A DNA stretch of 20,224 nucleotides from Giesbergeria sp. (GTDB lineage Bacteria; Pseudomonadota; Gammaproteobacteria; Burkholderiales; Burkholderiaceae_C): assembly GCA_017987055.1 (NCBI GenBank), contig JAGNUJ010000018.1, forward strand, positions 1 to 20,224. The letters run 5' to 3'. The position numbers and the translations under genes are program-made. The notes below the pieces were generated by a model. It made no database searches, was not told the DNA's origin, and saw only the letters and a list, made by a program, of their open reading frames with translations. Each line of letters begins with the position of its first letter. Positions within the stretch are counted from its first letter, which is position 1. This document shows, one piece after another, positions 9,975 to 13,777 of the stretch.

Positions 9975-11483
9975 ATGATTTCTCGCACCTCCTCCGGTTC
10001 TCCTTTTGGCGCTTCTTCTGGTGCGCCCCAGCGCGCCCCCACCGCCCGGCGCATCGACATTGCGCGTGCGTTGCTTCTGACTCCTTTTGGTCTGGACGAG
10101 CGCCACTTGGCGCGCGCGCTGGCCGAGATTCGCGCCCACCAAGTCGATGACGCAGACCTGTACTTCCAATACACCCGCAGCGAGGGCTGGAGTTTGGAAG
10201 AGGGCATAGTCAAAACCGGCTCGTTCAGCATCGACCAAGGTGTCGGCGTGCGCGCTGTCAGTGGCGAGAAGACGGCGTTTGCCTACTCCGACGACATCTC
10301 CGAAGCCTCGCTGCGCGACGCGGGGCGCACTGTACGGTCAATTGCGGCTGTAGGCCAATCAGGGCGTGCGAGAGTAGCTACGAAAAAAATAGCAACCAGC
10401 CGTAGTTTGTACGACGGCCTTGACCCGATTGCCACGCTCGACAGCACCGCTAAAGTGGCGCTGCTAGAAAAAGTGGAGCAGCGCGCCCGCGCCAAAGACC
10501 CGCGCGTGGCGCAAGTCATGGCCGGCTTGGCCAGTGAATACGACGTGGTGCTGGTCGCCCGCGCTGACGGCACCTTGGCCGCTGACGTACGCCCGCTGGT
10601 GCGCTTGTCGGTGACGGTGATTGCCGAGCAGGGCGGGCGCCGCGAGGTCGGCTCCGCTGGCGGCGGCGGGCGCTTTGGCTTAGCGTATTTTGACGATGCG
10701 CAAATCAACCAGTACGTCGATGAGGCCGTTAACGCCGCACTGGTCAACTTGGAGGCGCGCCCGGCACCGGCGGGCGTGATGACCGTGGTGCTCGGCCCGG
10801 GCTGGCCCGGCGTGCTGCTGCACGAGGCCGTCGGCCACGGCTTGGAAGGCGACTTCAACCGCAAGGGCTCCAGCGCTTTCAGTGGCCGCATTGGCCAGCG
10901 CGTCGCCGCCAAGGGCGTGACGGTGCTGGACGACGGCACCATTGCCGACCGGCGCGGCTCGCTCAACGTCGATGACGAAGGCCATGCGACCCAGTGCAAT
11001 GTGCTGATTGAGGATGGCATCTTGAAGGGCTATATCCAAGACTCGCTCAACGCCCGCTTGATGGGCGTAGCGCCCACTGGCAACGGTCGGCGCGAGAGCT
11101 ATGCGCACATTCCGATGCCGCGCATGACCAACACCTACATGCTGGGCGGCGACAAAGACCCGCAAGAAATCATCGCCAGCATCAAAAAAGGCCTCTACGC
11201 CACCAATTTTGGCGGCGGTCAGGTGGACATTACTTCGGGCAAATTTGTCTTCTCGGCCAGCGAAGCCTATTGGGTGGAAAACGGCAAAATTTTGTACCCG
11301 GTCAAGGGCGCCACCATTGTCGGCAGCGGCCCCGAGTCGCTCAAAAAAATCAGCATGATTGGCAACGATATGAAGCTCGACAGCGGCGTTGGCGTATGCG
11401 GCAAAGAAGGCCAAAGCGTGCCGGTCGGTGTTGGCCAGCCGACGCTGCGCATCGATGGTTTGACAGTGGGCGGCACCGCCTAA
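9975..11483 (+). CDS. tldD: Metalloprotease TldD
   Basis: TldD is the metal-bearing subunit of the TldD/TldE (PmbA) protease, which in E. coli matures microcin B17 and degrades the CcdA antitoxin. The 502-aa protein carries the zinc motif [12 protein letters not shown] (H283, E284, H288) and C475 in [10 protein letters not shown], and ends in the family's TVGGTA. Strongly conserved blocks include [49 protein letters not shown] and [16 protein letters not shown]. The first ~27 residues are Ser/Gly/Pro/Ala-rich and longer than in E. coli. The ATG at 9975 is kept because no later ATG fits and a -10-like TAAAAT lies 6 nt upstream. Residues about 125-142 ([18 protein letters not shown]) may derive from a degraded repeat. 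The partner tldE/pmbA is not in the window. Confidence 0.95.
10351..10395. repeat. Possible degenerate repeat copy R3, inside tldD
   Basis: TAGGCCAATCAGGGCGTGCG, followed by AGAGTAGCTACGAAAAAAATAGC, resembles the right half of copy R4 (TGCGCTAGCAGCTATCAAAA) with several mismatches and a shorter middle. It falls in a part of TldD that is poorly conserved between species. The similarity is weak and could be chance. Confidence 0.3.
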
Positions 11484-11494
11484 AAGGCACAGCC

Positions 11495-12031
11495 GTGGCG
11501 GCGAGCACCGGATTGCCACTGACGCAGACATGGTTGGGTGGCAATAGCCATTTATGGCTGGACGCGCTGGCCGACGAAGAGCTGCAGCAGTGGCGTGCCA
11601 GTCTCAGCGCACTGGCCGAGCGTGTCGAAGGCGCGATACAAGCGCGCCAGCAAAGCGCTGTGACCGAGCGCACCATCGACGCTGCAGACGCCTTGCTGCG
11701 CGGCGTGCGCCAGCACCAGTTTTTTTTGACTGGACTGGAATCGGCTTGGCACGCCCTGTATTCGTTTGATGCCTACCAACACGCGCAAGAGGAGCTGTCG
11801 GCCACCGTACTCGACTGGCGCCAAGCGCTCGAAGACGACAGCCCGGCCGAAGCCGACTGCTTTCAGCGCCTTCAATTGCTGGCGTGGCGCAGTGTGGGCG
11901 AGGGTATGTTGCTGGTCGATATCTACCAGCACGGCAACGGCCCGCTTAGCGAGGTGCCCCCGCCTGCGCCGGGTTGCTGTAGTGCGGCGTGGCTGTGGCT
12001 GTGGCTGCGCCGTTGGTGGCAGCGCCATTAG
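11495..12031 (+). CDS. Uncharacterised protein with Trp-rich C-terminus
   Basis: A 178-aa protein that I do not recognise. The start is GTG 11495, with AAGG 7 nt upstream and 11 bp after the tldD stop; the open frame extends further back, but only into tldD. Residues ~10-140 look largely alpha-helical and acidic-to-neutral (DALADEELQQWRASLSALAE, then repeated Gln/Ala/Glu-rich helices), followed by WRSVGEGMLLVDIYQHGNGP. After a Pro-rich linker (EVPPPAPGCC) the protein ends in AAWLWLWLRRWWQRH, an amphiphilic Trp/Arg tail partly encoded by a GTGGCT hexamer repeat (11988-12008). There is no signal peptide. The position suggests co-transcription with tldD. Function unknown; it could be a lineage-restricted gene. 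Coding is supported by the tight spacing and by family-like codon bias. Confidence 0.6.
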   Translation: MAASTGLPLTQTWLGGNSHLWLDALADEELQQWRASLSALAERVEGAIQARQQSAVTERTIDAADALLRGVRQHQFFLTGLESAWHALYSFDAYQHAQEELSATVLDWRQALEDDSPAEADCFQRLQLLAWRSVGEGMLLVDIYQHGNGPLSEVPPPAPGCCSAAWLWLWLRRWWQRH

Positions 12032-12080
12032 TGCGCTGTGGGCGGTGTGTTGCAGTGCAGCACCGCTGCGCGCACTGTGC

Positions 12081-12086
12081 TACATT
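12081..12086 (+). promoter_or_regulatory. Candidate extended -10 element before the aroG leader peptide
   Basis: TGC-TACATT (12078-12086) has the TG of an extended -10 and a hexamer matching TATAAT at 4/6 positions. It ends 7 nt before the leader-peptide ATG at 12094, so the leader peptide could be translated from a leaderless or nearly leaderless transcript. No good -35 is seen at 16-18 bp; TTGCAG (12050-12055) is too far away. Confidence 0.3.
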
Positions 12087-12093
12087 GAGCGCC

Positions 12094-12153
12094 ATGTATT
12101 TTTTGCCCAGCGCGTTTTATTTTTGGTTTTACTTCTCGGTCCAAGGCGGATGA
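12094..12153 (+). CDS. Aromatic-rich leader peptide of aroG (attenuator peptide)
   Basis: A 19-codon ORF encoding MYFLPSAFYFWFYFSVQGG, ending in TGA at 12151-12153. Nine of 19 residues are aromatic (5 Phe, 3 Tyr, 1 Trp), and residues 8-14 are an unbroken aromatic run encoded at 12115-12135. It lies 127 bp before the start of the DAHP synthase gene, the entry step of aromatic amino-acid synthesis, and is followed by a terminator hairpin. The layout is that of a ribosome-mediated attenuation leader: scarcity of charged tRNA-Phe, -Tyr or -Trp would stall the ribosome in the run. Only a weak ribosome-binding site (GAG, 12087-12089) precedes the ATG. The function is inferred from composition and position, not from a known homologue. 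Confidence 0.8.
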   Translation: MYFLPSAFYFWFYFSVQGG

Positions 12154-12197
12154 GAGGCAAGAGCGCGCAAGCACCTGATACTTCCCACCCAACCGCC
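12145..12197 (+). promoter_or_regulatory. Possible antiterminator pairing for aroG attenuation
   Basis: GGCGG at 12145-12149, in the last two sense codons of the leader peptide, is complementary to CCGCC at 12193-12197, the left arm of the terminator stem; pairing extends with mismatches through UG and G. A ribosome stalled in the aromatic run (12115-12135) would leave most of GGCGG free, whereas one reaching the stop at 12151 would cover it. This predicts terminator formation when aromatic amino acids are plentiful. The pairing is read by eye; no energies were calculated. Confidence 0.45.
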
Positions 12198-12224
12198 GCT
12201 GCTGCACAAGCCCGGCGGTTTTTT
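12191..12224 (+). terminator. Rho-independent terminator/attenuator upstream of aroG
   Basis: AACCGCCG (12191-12198) pairs perfectly with CGGCGGTT (12213-12220) around a 14-nt loop, followed by a T-run (TTTTTT, 12219-12224) and GTTGTTG. It lies between the leader-peptide stop and the aroG ribosome-binding site. A plain terminator for the preceding gene is possible, but the intervening leader peptide favours attenuation. Confidence 0.8.
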
Positions 12225-12280
12225 GTTGTTGAAGCGTCTGTAGTTGATTTATTCATTTACCCATCGAGAGGAAGCAAACC

Positions 12281-13426
12281 ATGACGGCCCAAGCCACCCC
12301 TGCCAGCGATGTCTGGTACCGAAGCGTCGAGAAAACCAGCCAAGCCGACGACGAACGTATCAAGGACATTACCGTGTTGCCCCCTCCCGAACATCTGATC
12401 CGCTTTTTTCCGATCCGCGCCACTGCGGTCGAGACGCTGGTCACGCAGACGCGCAAAAACATCCACAACATCATGGCCGGCGACGATGACCGCCTGCTGG
12501 TGGTGATTGGCCCGTGCTCCATTCACGACCCGGCGGCGGCGCTGGACTACGCGCGGCGCCTGCAAGCGGCGCGCGCCGAGTACGCCGACACGCTGGAAAT
12601 CGTCATGCGCGTCTACTTTGAAAAGCCGCGCACCACAGTGGGCTGGAAGGGCTTGATCAACGACCCCTACTTGGACGAGAGCTACCGCATTGACGAGGGT
12701 CTGCGCATGGCGCGCCAGTTGCTCATCGACATTAACCGCCTCGGCGTGCCCGCCGGCAGCGAGTTTTTGGACGTGATCTCGCCGCAGTACATTGCCGACC
12801 TGATCAGCTGGGGCGCCATCGGTGCGCGCACCACCGAGAGCCAAGTCCACCGCGAACTGGCCTCGGGCCTGTCGGCGCCGATTGGCTTTAAAAACGGCAC
12901 CGACGGCAACATCCGCATTGCCACCGACGCCATCCAGTCGGCCAGCCGCGGCCACCACTTCTTGTCGGTGCACAAAAACGGCCAAGTGGCGATTGTTGAC
13001 ACCCAAGGCAACCGCGACTGCCATGTCATCTTGCGCGGCGGCAAAGCGCCCAACTACGACGCCGCCAGCGTTGCTGCTGCCTGCCAAGACTTGGCGGCTG
13101 CGCAATTGCCGGCGACGTTGATGGTCGACTGCAGCCACGCCAACAGCAGCAAACAGCACCAAAAGCAGCAAGAAGTGGCGCGCGATGTTGCCGCGCAAAT
13201 TGCCGGCGGCTCGCGCAGCGTGTTTGGTTTGATGATTGAGAGCAACATCGTTGCTGGCACACAAAAATTCACCCCCGGCAAAGACCAGCCCAGCAGCCTC
13301 GAATACGGCAAAAGCATCACCGACGCCTGCTTGGGTTGGCAAGACTCGCTGCAGACCTTGGACGAGCTGGCCGCCGCAGTGCAAGCGCGCCGCACGCTGG
13401 ATAAAGACGCAGCAAGTTCGGTGTAA
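12281..13426 (+). CDS. aroG: 3-deoxy-7-phosphoheptulonate (DAHP) synthase, class I
   Basis: It condenses phosphoenolpyruvate with erythrose 4-phosphate to DAHP, the committed step of the shikimate pathway. The 381-aa protein is a class I (AroF/AroG/AroH-type) enzyme. Metal ligands are C79 in GPCSIHD, H286 in DCSHANSSK, E320 in MIESN and D348 in KSITDACLGW; active-site R110 and K115 are in MRVYFEKPRTT. The block GAIGARTTESQVHRELASGLSAPIGFKNGTDG is nearly invariant in the family. The region equivalent to the allosteric site of E. coli AroG is conserved, including P157 (E. coli P150 lies in the same GxPAxxEFLD context), so feedback inhibition is likely, but by which amino acid cannot be read. 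The ribosome-binding site GAGAGGAAG lies 6 nt before the ATG. Transcription is probably governed by the upstream leader-peptide attenuator. Confidence 0.95.
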   Translation: MTAQATPASDVWYRSVEKTSQADDERIKDITVLPPPEHLIRFFPIRATAVETLVTQTRKNIHNIMAGDDDRLLVVIGPCSIHDPAAALDYARRLQAARAEYADTLEIVMRVYFEKPRTTVGWKGLINDPYLDESYRIDEGLRMARQLLIDINRLGVPAGSEFLDVISPQYIADLISWGAIGARTTESQVHRELASGLSAPIGFKNGTDGNIRIATDAIQSASRGHHFLSVHKNGQVAIVDTQGNRDCHVILRGGKAPNYDAASVAAACQDLAAAQLPATLMVDCSHANSSKQHQKQQEVARDVAAQIAGGSRSVFGLMIESNIVAGTQKFTPGKDQPSSLEYGKSITDACLGWQDSLQTLDELAAAVQARRTLDKDAASSV

Positions 13427-13465: not shown

Positions 13466-13777
13466 ATGCGCAGCGAAGTCTCTGTCTCCTTGTCCCTGAA
13501 CGAAGAATTCAAGTTTGATCTCCAAGACCAAGCCCCGATGACCAACGAAGAAGGCCGCCGTTGGTTGGAAGACCAGTTCATCAGCTTGGAGTGCGAGCCT
13601 TTGCGCGCTAGCGGCAAAGTGCTGTCAGCCGACAAAGTGCTGACGGTGGCACACGCTGGCGGTAAGCGCCTGTTGGCTGATCCAGAGTGGTCGATGGCAT
13701 TTGCCCGCGCTACCAAGGCAGCGCTTGGCAAGCCGGTGGTGCGCGTCGATTTGATGTCGATGGCCGTGAGCTATTAA
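13466..13777 (+). CDS. Small conserved hypothetical protein downstream of aroG
   Basis: A 103-aa soluble protein of unknown function, starting 39 bp after aroG with AAAGG 6 nt before the ATG. The N-terminal half is acidic (LNEEFKFDLQDQAPMTNEEGRRWLEDQFISLECEP). The C-terminal half is more basic and hydrophobic (GGKRLLADPEWSMAFARATKAALGKPVVRVDLMSMAVSY). There is no signal peptide, membrane helix or recognisable catalytic motif. It lies between aroG and the bidirectional terminator at 13841-13878, so it probably shares the aroG transcript; whether it relates to aromatic metabolism is unknown. The good ribosome-binding site, tight spacing and terminator position support it as a real gene. Confidence 0.75.
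   Translation: MRSEVSVSLSLNEEFKFDLQDQAPMTNEEGRRWLEDQFISLECEPLRASGKVLSADKVLTVAHAGGKRLLADPEWSMAFARATKAALGKPVVRVDLMSMAVSY

Follow-up and report, generated by a model that had tools for sequence, protein, structure and literature searches.

DAHP synthase acts as the valve of aromatic synthesis, and in Giesbergeria sp. the gene encoding it, aroG, is preceded by a short open reading frame (ORF) with seven consecutive aromatic codons and by a terminator. What does this arrangement do, and to which amino acids would it answer? We addressed these questions for the window (the whole stretch of 20,224 nucleotides that was analysed, from contig JAGNUJ010000018.1) and for the corresponding loci in related genomes. 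Judging from the sequences, the aroG 5' leader is very probably a classical ribosome-mediated transcription attenuator on a Phe-type DAHP synthase, answering to the supply of Phe, Tyr and usually Trp.

The leader ORF and the layout of the aroG locus

The leader peptide ORF (MYFLPSAFYFWFYFSVQGG, probably leaderless) lies at positions 12094-12153 of the forward strand, with its stop codon at 12151-12153, and an aromatic-rich ORF is likewise found upstream of aroG in relatives. Residues 8-14 of the peptide are F-Y-F-W-F-Y-F (12115-12135, forward strand); no other run of five or more F/Y/W codons exists in any of the six reading frames of the window. The intrinsic terminator (AACCGCCG...CCGGCGGTTTTTT, 12191-12224, forward strand), which the original prediction had placed 38 nt past the leader stop, starts 37-38 nt after it and is followed by a Shine-Dalgarno-like sequence, GAGAGGA (12266-12272, forward strand, recognised from the sequence), and by the ATG of aroG at 12281 (12281-13426, forward strand; class I DAHP synthase, Pfam PF00793, DAHP_synth_1). 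The 19-codon ORF with its aromatic run, as well as the ribosome-binding site and aroG behind the terminator, were found where they had been predicted.

Two further ORFs flank this unit. The one at 11270-12031 (forward strand), between pmbA and the leader, gave no Pfam match and is separated from the leader ATG by 62 nt, a gap in which the leader promoter would lie unless it extends into the ORF. The other encodes 103 amino acids (13466-13777, forward strand, about 40 bp 3' of aroG), gave no Pfam match either and is possibly co-transcribed with aroG.

A search of the window against Rfam yielded no match above the gathering score, and when matches up to E 10 were considered for the region 12000-12320 only RefA5 and mir-33 appeared, both far below their gathering scores. 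A known RNA family (Rfam, e.g. the Phe and Trp leaders) was rejected on the ground that no curated covariance model matched.

Conservation of the leader peptide and its codons

We scanned the 400 nt 5' of aroG in 139 loci, of which 80 were the best 80 of 587 and the rest came from the genome itself, its genus and its family, for ORFs in which 5 or more of 10 codons are F/Y/W. Four loci were excluded for lying at a contig edge or containing a partial gene, and some genes were entered twice (e.g. L011/L102). A leader ORF was found in 114 of the 135 loci scanned, a proportion that describes a sample picked by similarity and is no census. Five of the 21 loci without a leader are copies of a second DAHP synthase paralogue (L002, L108-L111), and the loci without a leader further include three of Polynucleobacter, two of Cupriavidus and records labelled Planctomycetota and Verrucomicrobiia. 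For the Polynucleobacter (L031-L033) and Cupriavidus (L036, L038) loci neither a leader nor a terminator was found in the 400 nt 5' of the aroG relatives; the leader has apparently been lost there or the genes are other paralogues, and these loci could serve as natural controls.

For the alignments (A1-A3) 67 of the 114 leaders were used, taken from 84 references by thinning out close relatives. The ORF frame holds on average 6.8 aromatic residues in its best 10 codons and the other two frames 2.3 and 2.2 (67 aligned leaders). The aromatic character of the control codons is kept through synonymous changes and through interchange of F, Y and W: the aromatic codons of the 67 leaders comprise TTT (191), TTC (104), TAC (67), TAT (51) and TGG (62), corresponding to 295 F, 118 Y and 62 W residues. 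All three residues are present in 57 of the 67 leaders, and F and Y only in the other 10. At codon -7, counted from the conserved GGCGG motif discussed below, Y occurs in 34, F in 22 and W in 9 of the 67, and at codon -6 F occurs in 50, W in 13 and Y in one; this exchange indicates that the site needs an aromatic residue but not a particular one. Examples are MQVRSAFYFWFYFSVPGG of Acidovorax (L003), MSALRAYFFAYFWFPVSGGREASA of Variovorax (L010), MSAKFYFYFFWHLKPLADREG of Burkholderia and Caballeronia (L065, L066) and MHSFIFFTGYFYFSDSNPKAVE of Rugamonas (L055).

One locus (L030) has kept the terminator and its position and has a degenerate leader, YHFWHFH, in which His replaces several of the aromatic residues. 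By its sequence this leader would be either decaying or gaining His codons.

Three competing helices in the leader RNA

The terminator (segments 3:4) pairs CCGCC (segment 3, 12193-12197, forward strand), which is common to the antiterminator and the terminator and identical in all 67 aligned leaders, with a second GGCGG (12214-12218), directly followed by six T (12219-12224). Its fold of -16.5 kcal/mol (z -2.94) was equalled by one of 200 shuffles. Across the alignment 99.8% of the cells of helix 3:4 are paired, and its inner pair is GC in 53, AU in 13 and UA in one of the 67 leaders.

The antiterminator (segments 2:3) had been proposed to form between GGCGG in the last leader codons and the same CCGCC, and this pairing is indeed part of the minimum-energy fold of the GGCGG-to-CCGCC segment in 66 of 67 leaders. 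GGCGG itself (segment 2, the antiterminator 5' strand, 12145-12149, forward strand) is found in those 66, the exception being L007, which has GGCCG. It stands in one reading frame in 41 of the 67 leaders and in another in 25, and its conservation in two frames implies a constraint on the RNA. For helix 2:3 the paired fraction of cells is 97.0%, and covariation was found only at one flanking pair (CG 35, UG 12, UA 8, AU 1, unpaired 11 of the 67), where the score was 0.089 versus 0.084 for the helix slid by one; the GGCGG/CCGCC core shows no covariation because it hardly varies. Of the covariation that the original prediction expected in two stems, that of the terminator, at its inner pair, was present, whereas that of the antiterminator, at its single flanking pair, was not clearly above the slid control. 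Single-sequence folding alone was not distinctive (z -0.17 for the region of 211 nt and -0.12 for the antiterminator segment), and the antiterminator of the window is no more stable than shuffles. As such folding would not single the element out, its proof is comparative.

Another structure, additional to the two originally considered, is a protector hairpin (segments 1:2) over the last aromatic codons, with covariation. The core of its 5' strand is UUCUC (segment 1, 12133-12137, forward strand, in codons 14-15) and its 3' strand is GAGAGG (12152-12157, forward strand), which can alternatively pair with a pyrimidine tract (12181-12186) inside the antiterminator. In single folds of 50 nt around GGCGG, at least four pairs connect the 24 nt before GGCGG with GGCGG or the sequence after it in 66 of 67 leaders. 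The helix in the alignment consists of nine pairs (UUCUC/GAGAG and four inner pairs, columns 17-26 with 35-44) and shows pairing in 87.4% of cells, compared with 41-60% for slid controls; the comparison is biased towards the helix, which was picked after inspection of the single folds. Both sides have changed in six of the nine pairs (as many in one of 500 shuffles), and the covariation score of 0.243 exceeds that of all 500 shuffles (mean 0.133), a score of the kind that kinship among the leader sequences can inflate. The number of pair types in helix 1:2 was not above that of the shuffles (97 of 500 were as high), and RNAalifold returned no consensus pairs for the 1:2 segment and only the outer six pairs when applied to the inner antiterminator helices.

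Modelled position of the ribosome and choice between the helices

The effect of a ribosome on these helices was modelled for 66 of the 67 leaders (L007, with GGCCG, was left out), assuming that the ribosome shields the RNA as far as 12 nt beyond the first base of the A-site codon and folding the RNA as it would be at the moment that the polymerase has made CCGCC and three more bases. With the ribosome waiting at codon -7, -6, -5 or -4 from GGCGG, the early antiterminator had a modelled probability above 0.5 in all 66 leaders, and with the ribosome 3 codons from GGCGG or nearer in none of the 66; this border between permissive and non-permissive codons shifts by one codon when the footprint is set to 9 or 15 nt. 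The codons at -7, -6, -5 and -4 are aromatic in 65, 64, 52 and 42 of the 66 leaders, respectively, and the codon at -3 in 3 of 66. According to the model, the end of the aromatic run coincides, to within a codon or so, with the point from which a waiting ribosome would begin covering the antiterminator. For the window the modelled antiterminator probability is low at the first control codons (0.03 at codon 8, F, and 0.08 at codon 9, Y) and then 0.74 at codon 10 (F), 0.88 at codon 11 (W) and 0.99 at each of the codons 12 (F), 13 (Y) and 14 (F).

In the model without a ribosome the early antiterminator had a probability above 0.5 in 26 of 66 leaders, so that the protector hairpin does not appear decisive everywhere. 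When the full leader was folded to equilibrium, the terminator had a probability above 0.5 in 65 of 66 leaders without a ribosome, in 56 of 66 with a stalled ribosome and in all 66 with the ribosome at the stop codon. As the terminator prevails at equilibrium even when the ribosome is stalled, kinetics must govern the switch.

Probable start of the leader transcript

The window has an extended -10-like element (TGCTACATT, 12078-12086, forward strand) with the hexamer TACATT at 12081-12086, 7 nt 5' of the leader ATG, and a TG one base upstream of the hexamer. We take this to be a putative promoter, for which the predicted 5' end of the transcript would be at about 12093-12094. The same feature was looked for in 111 leaders (the weak L071-L073 were left out), counting hexamers with at least 4 of 6 letters matching TACATT. 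The best hexamer ends 6-8 nt 5' of the leader ATG in 84 of the 111 (6 nt in 10, 7 nt in 50 and 8 nt in 24 leaders), with that of L059, among the 84, probably being a chance match. In Burkholderia- and Massilia-like leaders a -10-like box was seen by eye farther upstream. A Shine-Dalgarno-like tetramer (one of four) within 20 nt 5' of the leader ATG was found in only one of the 111 leaders. The close spacing between the -10-like box and most leader ATGs suggests that the leader transcript is leaderless.

Distribution of the leader

A covariance model (R1) built from the 67 leaders, mostly close to that of the window, matched 194 of 200 sampled genomes of the family, in 137 of 141 genera (E<=1e-6). 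A lack of conservation in relatives, which had been named as the outcome that would speak against the leader, is clearly contradicted by these 194 genomes and by the 114 of 135 loci of the upstream scan. Each family genome has one match, with the exception of one genome (G187) with two matches and two aroG-like genes. Of the six family genomes without a match, two have no DAHP synthase match and four have lower-scoring ones (E 6e-59 to 1e-148). Another six (G044, G065, G093, G137, G140 and G165) combine an R1 match with only a lower-scoring DAHP synthase. The position of the leader is fixed: 60 matches were entered in a check of the distance to aroG, and all 50 that could be judged lie 33-86 nt 5' of the matched aroG start on the same strand, the other 10 having no listed aroG row.

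In the order 35 of 150 genomes matched R1, in 14 families, and 31 of the 35 belong to families other than that of the window; loci were retrieved for 20 of the 35, and all 20 matches precede aroG. In the class we found matches in 8 of 114 genomes (E<=1e-4), including the genome itself and one of the same family (G139). One of these genomes lies outside the order (G382; its locus L165 is the same gene as L190) and has a GTG-started leader, MNTPCARFYRWYYFPKPPAEEGVRAF, before aroG with the same arrangement of GGCGG and terminator. By this sequence the element would either extend beyond the order or have been transferred. In the remaining five genomes of the class the matches, at seven loci (L166-L172), have no DAHP synthase next to them, and all but one of the seven are confined to the 3' part of the model.

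We also looked directly upstream of 68 DAHP synthase genes from members of the class outside the family of the window (28 loci, L174-L201, and 40 regions, L202-L241). One clear leader (L190) and one possible leader (L220) were found; aromatic-rich ORFs in L233 and L234 have no terminator and were not counted as leaders, and in the remaining 64 regions no leader was seen with the strict terminator filter. As R1 was trained on near leaders and stricter filters were applied in the large searches, the low R1 counts at a distance are lower bounds. In the possible case (L220:195-323, from G465 of the same class) the ORF 5' of the DAHP synthase gene ends in ...KFYFYYYFSA, an attenuator-like aromatic run, and a GC hairpin lies at its stop codon, with no clear U-run behind it. 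This may be a similar but unrelated leader.

A leader common to many genes of the genome itself was rejected: in the assembly, which is 61% complete, R1 gave one match of 94.9 bits and 19 others of at most 24.2 bits, mostly to the terminator end of the model.

The AroG enzyme and a search for the E. coli regulators

The closest solved structure to the product of aroG in the window is that of the Phe-sensitive E. coli AroG (1n8f). At the position aligned with Ser211 (S211) of E. coli AroG the enzyme has a serine, and the genome's second DAHP synthase (L002) has a glycine, which we take to mark Phe-type and Tyr-type regulation, respectively. The leader was found in none of the five copies of this second paralogue that were examined (L002, L108-L111).

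According to the published passages on its regulation, transcription of DAHP synthase genes in E. coli is controlled by TyrR and TrpR. We searched for both regulators in 40 relatives, 24 of the genus itself and 16 of other families in the order (30 of the 40 with a completeness of 90% or more and a contamination of 5% or less). The Trp repressor TrpR (PF01371) was found in none of the 40, and neither was the TyrR-type HTH domain HTH_TypR (TIGR04381), which presumably marks the TyrR family; in both searches the E. coli control was positive. The leader is an obvious candidate for the transcriptional control of aroG in these relatives, in which no TrpR or TyrR-type HTH domain was detected.

Proposed mechanism and alternative explanations

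The conserved ORF, its aromatic codons, the three competing helices and the fixed position before aroG together point to a switch in which start site, translation, stalling and regulatory outcome would be as follows. Transcription would start at the leader AUG, give or take about one nucleotide. With charged Phe-, Tyr- and Trp-tRNAs available, the ribosome would reach the stop codon and cover segment 2 (GGCGG/GAGAGG), upon which CCGCC would pair with the second GGCGG and transcription would stop before aroG. When one of the charged aromatic tRNAs is short, the ribosome would wait in the aromatic run and cover segment 1 (UUCUC), which, when free, would hold segment 2 in the protector hairpin. 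Segment 2, freed in this way, would pair with CCGCC once that has been made, and the terminator would be pre-empted and aroG transcribed. Without translation the protector hairpin would tend to form, leading to termination.

We put at about even the chance of a more far-reaching form of this proposal, namely that the attenuator is an order-wide OR gate over the charging of the Phe, Tyr and Trp tRNAs, in bacteria for which the TrpR and TyrR-type domains went unfound in the relatives searched, with the aromatic codons doubling as strand 1 and with leaderless translation. If it holds, a shortage of any one of the charged tRNAs would be enough to release the shikimate pathway at its first step. 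As the aromatic codons would serve both as sensor and as strand 1, overlapping nucleotides would be under selection for aromaticity in the peptide and for pairing in the RNA, and as the leader would be translated from a leaderless transcript, its initiation may answer to other conditions than that of the rest of the genome.

The combined sensing of Phe, Tyr and Trp that had been proposed for this leader stands as far as codon content goes, with all three residues encoded in 57 of 67 leaders, and is only partly supported, given the 10 of 67 without a Trp codon and aroR of Corynebacterium glutamicum, which reportedly responds to Phe and not to Tyr. It is possible, though the less probable course, that the attenuator answers mainly to Phe and that the Tyr and Trp codons are passengers or serve fine tuning, as in C. 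glutamicum aroR, for which the source, in its account of the regulation, gives Tyr availability as being without effect. Among the control residues F is the most frequent (295 F against 118 Y and 62 W in the 67 leaders), the 10 leaders without W fit as well, and the enzyme has the serine that we assume to be typical of Phe-type enzymes. Nevertheless, most leaders hold all three aromatic residues, F, Y and W interchange at the same site, and the W and Y of the window (codons 11 and 13) lie within the predicted sensing stretch.

The remaining alternatives are less probable than this. That the terminated leader RNA or the peptide also acts in trans, as a small RNA or small protein like rnTrpL/peTrpL of Sinorhizobium meliloti, seems rather improbable: the predicted terminated transcript, about 130 nt long, leaderless and containing a conserved ORF, does resemble the published description of rnTrpL, but the peptide is conserved only as aromatic positions and as residues explicable by RNA pairing. 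Arrest peptides keep specific residues; in the case of TnaC the nascent peptide stalls the ribosome in answer to Trp. We consider a comparable arrest by the aromatic peptide, in response to a small molecule, very improbable and rejected it, for although an aromatic-rich nascent chain is encoded in a conserved unit, there are no invariant specific residues, F, Y and W substitute for one another and the flanks vary between families. Phe codons arise easily in U-rich DNA, and one could envisage a constitutive terminator of the upstream gene accompanied by a chance aromatic ORF; this is hardly credible in view of the frame control and the conservation, which led us to reject it, and of the pairing that the competing helices have kept.

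Relation to known systems

Multivalent leaders of the ilvGMEDA type, in which one leader senses several related amino acids, differ from the aroG leader in that the amino acids are branched-chain and not aromatic. The closest precedent for an attenuator before aroG is aroR-aroF of C. glutamicum, the aroR transcript reportedly being leaderless. In that system, as described in the published account, the DAHP synthase gene aroF is preceded by a leader peptide with Phe-Tyr-Phe and is controlled by ribosome-mediated attenuation, and its transcription goes up under Phe limitation. The F-Y-F of aroR corresponds to residues 8-10 of the leader in the window, likewise before a DAHP synthase gene. C. glutamicum belongs to another phylum, however, and its leader has F-Y-F and shows no Tyr effect, whereas the leaders of the group studied here have up to seven consecutive aromatic residues and usually a Trp.

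With trpL and pheL of E. coli, as these are presented in the literature consulted, the aroG leader shares the control codons for the end product, the competing helices I:II, II:III and III:IV and the terminator before the structural gene; the E. coli leaders each answer to one amino acid and act in terminal branches, whereas the aroG leader would act at the common first step and answer to up to three. For E. coli aroF attenuation was once hypothesised, as mentioned in a published text. A predicted aroF attenuator of Acholeplasma (uORFC-13-1), according to its published entry, similarly has, in front of a DAHP synthase gene, a short ORF with one or more Phe codons and a terminator; it differs in having a ribosome-binding site and at least one Phe, and in being another RNA from another phylum. 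A putative attenuator is also listed before the DAHP synthase gene of the DAHP synthase-tyrA operon of Vibrio; it derives, however, from a database of predictions, and no leader peptide is described for it, the word 'leader' being absent from the text of the paper. The leaderless attenuator ORF starting at AUG has a counterpart in trpL/rnTrpL of S. meliloti, which in the published description is located before trpE and concerns Trp only.

From these sources, as far as they extend, F/Y-containing leaders that attenuate a DAHP synthase gene (C. glutamicum; predicted in Acholeplasma and listed as a prediction in Vibrio) and leaderless attenuator ORFs (S. meliloti trpL) are known, and the aroG leader stands out by its breadth, its triple aromatic content and its occurrence where the E. 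coli regulators were not found in 40 relatives. To C. glutamicum aroR and the motif of Acholeplasma it would add a further DAHP synthase gene with a Phe- or Phe/Tyr-coding leader, possibly of independent origin. It would provide a large bacterial group with a testable mechanism, constitute a natural multivalent aminoacyl-tRNA sensor that could be used as a reporter, and make a new Rfam-type family. In the open full-text literature that was searched, no description of the aroG leader in Burkholderiales was found. A table of 2010 includes a motif, Burkholderiales-1, given there without an Rfam entry, that may overlap the aroG leader.
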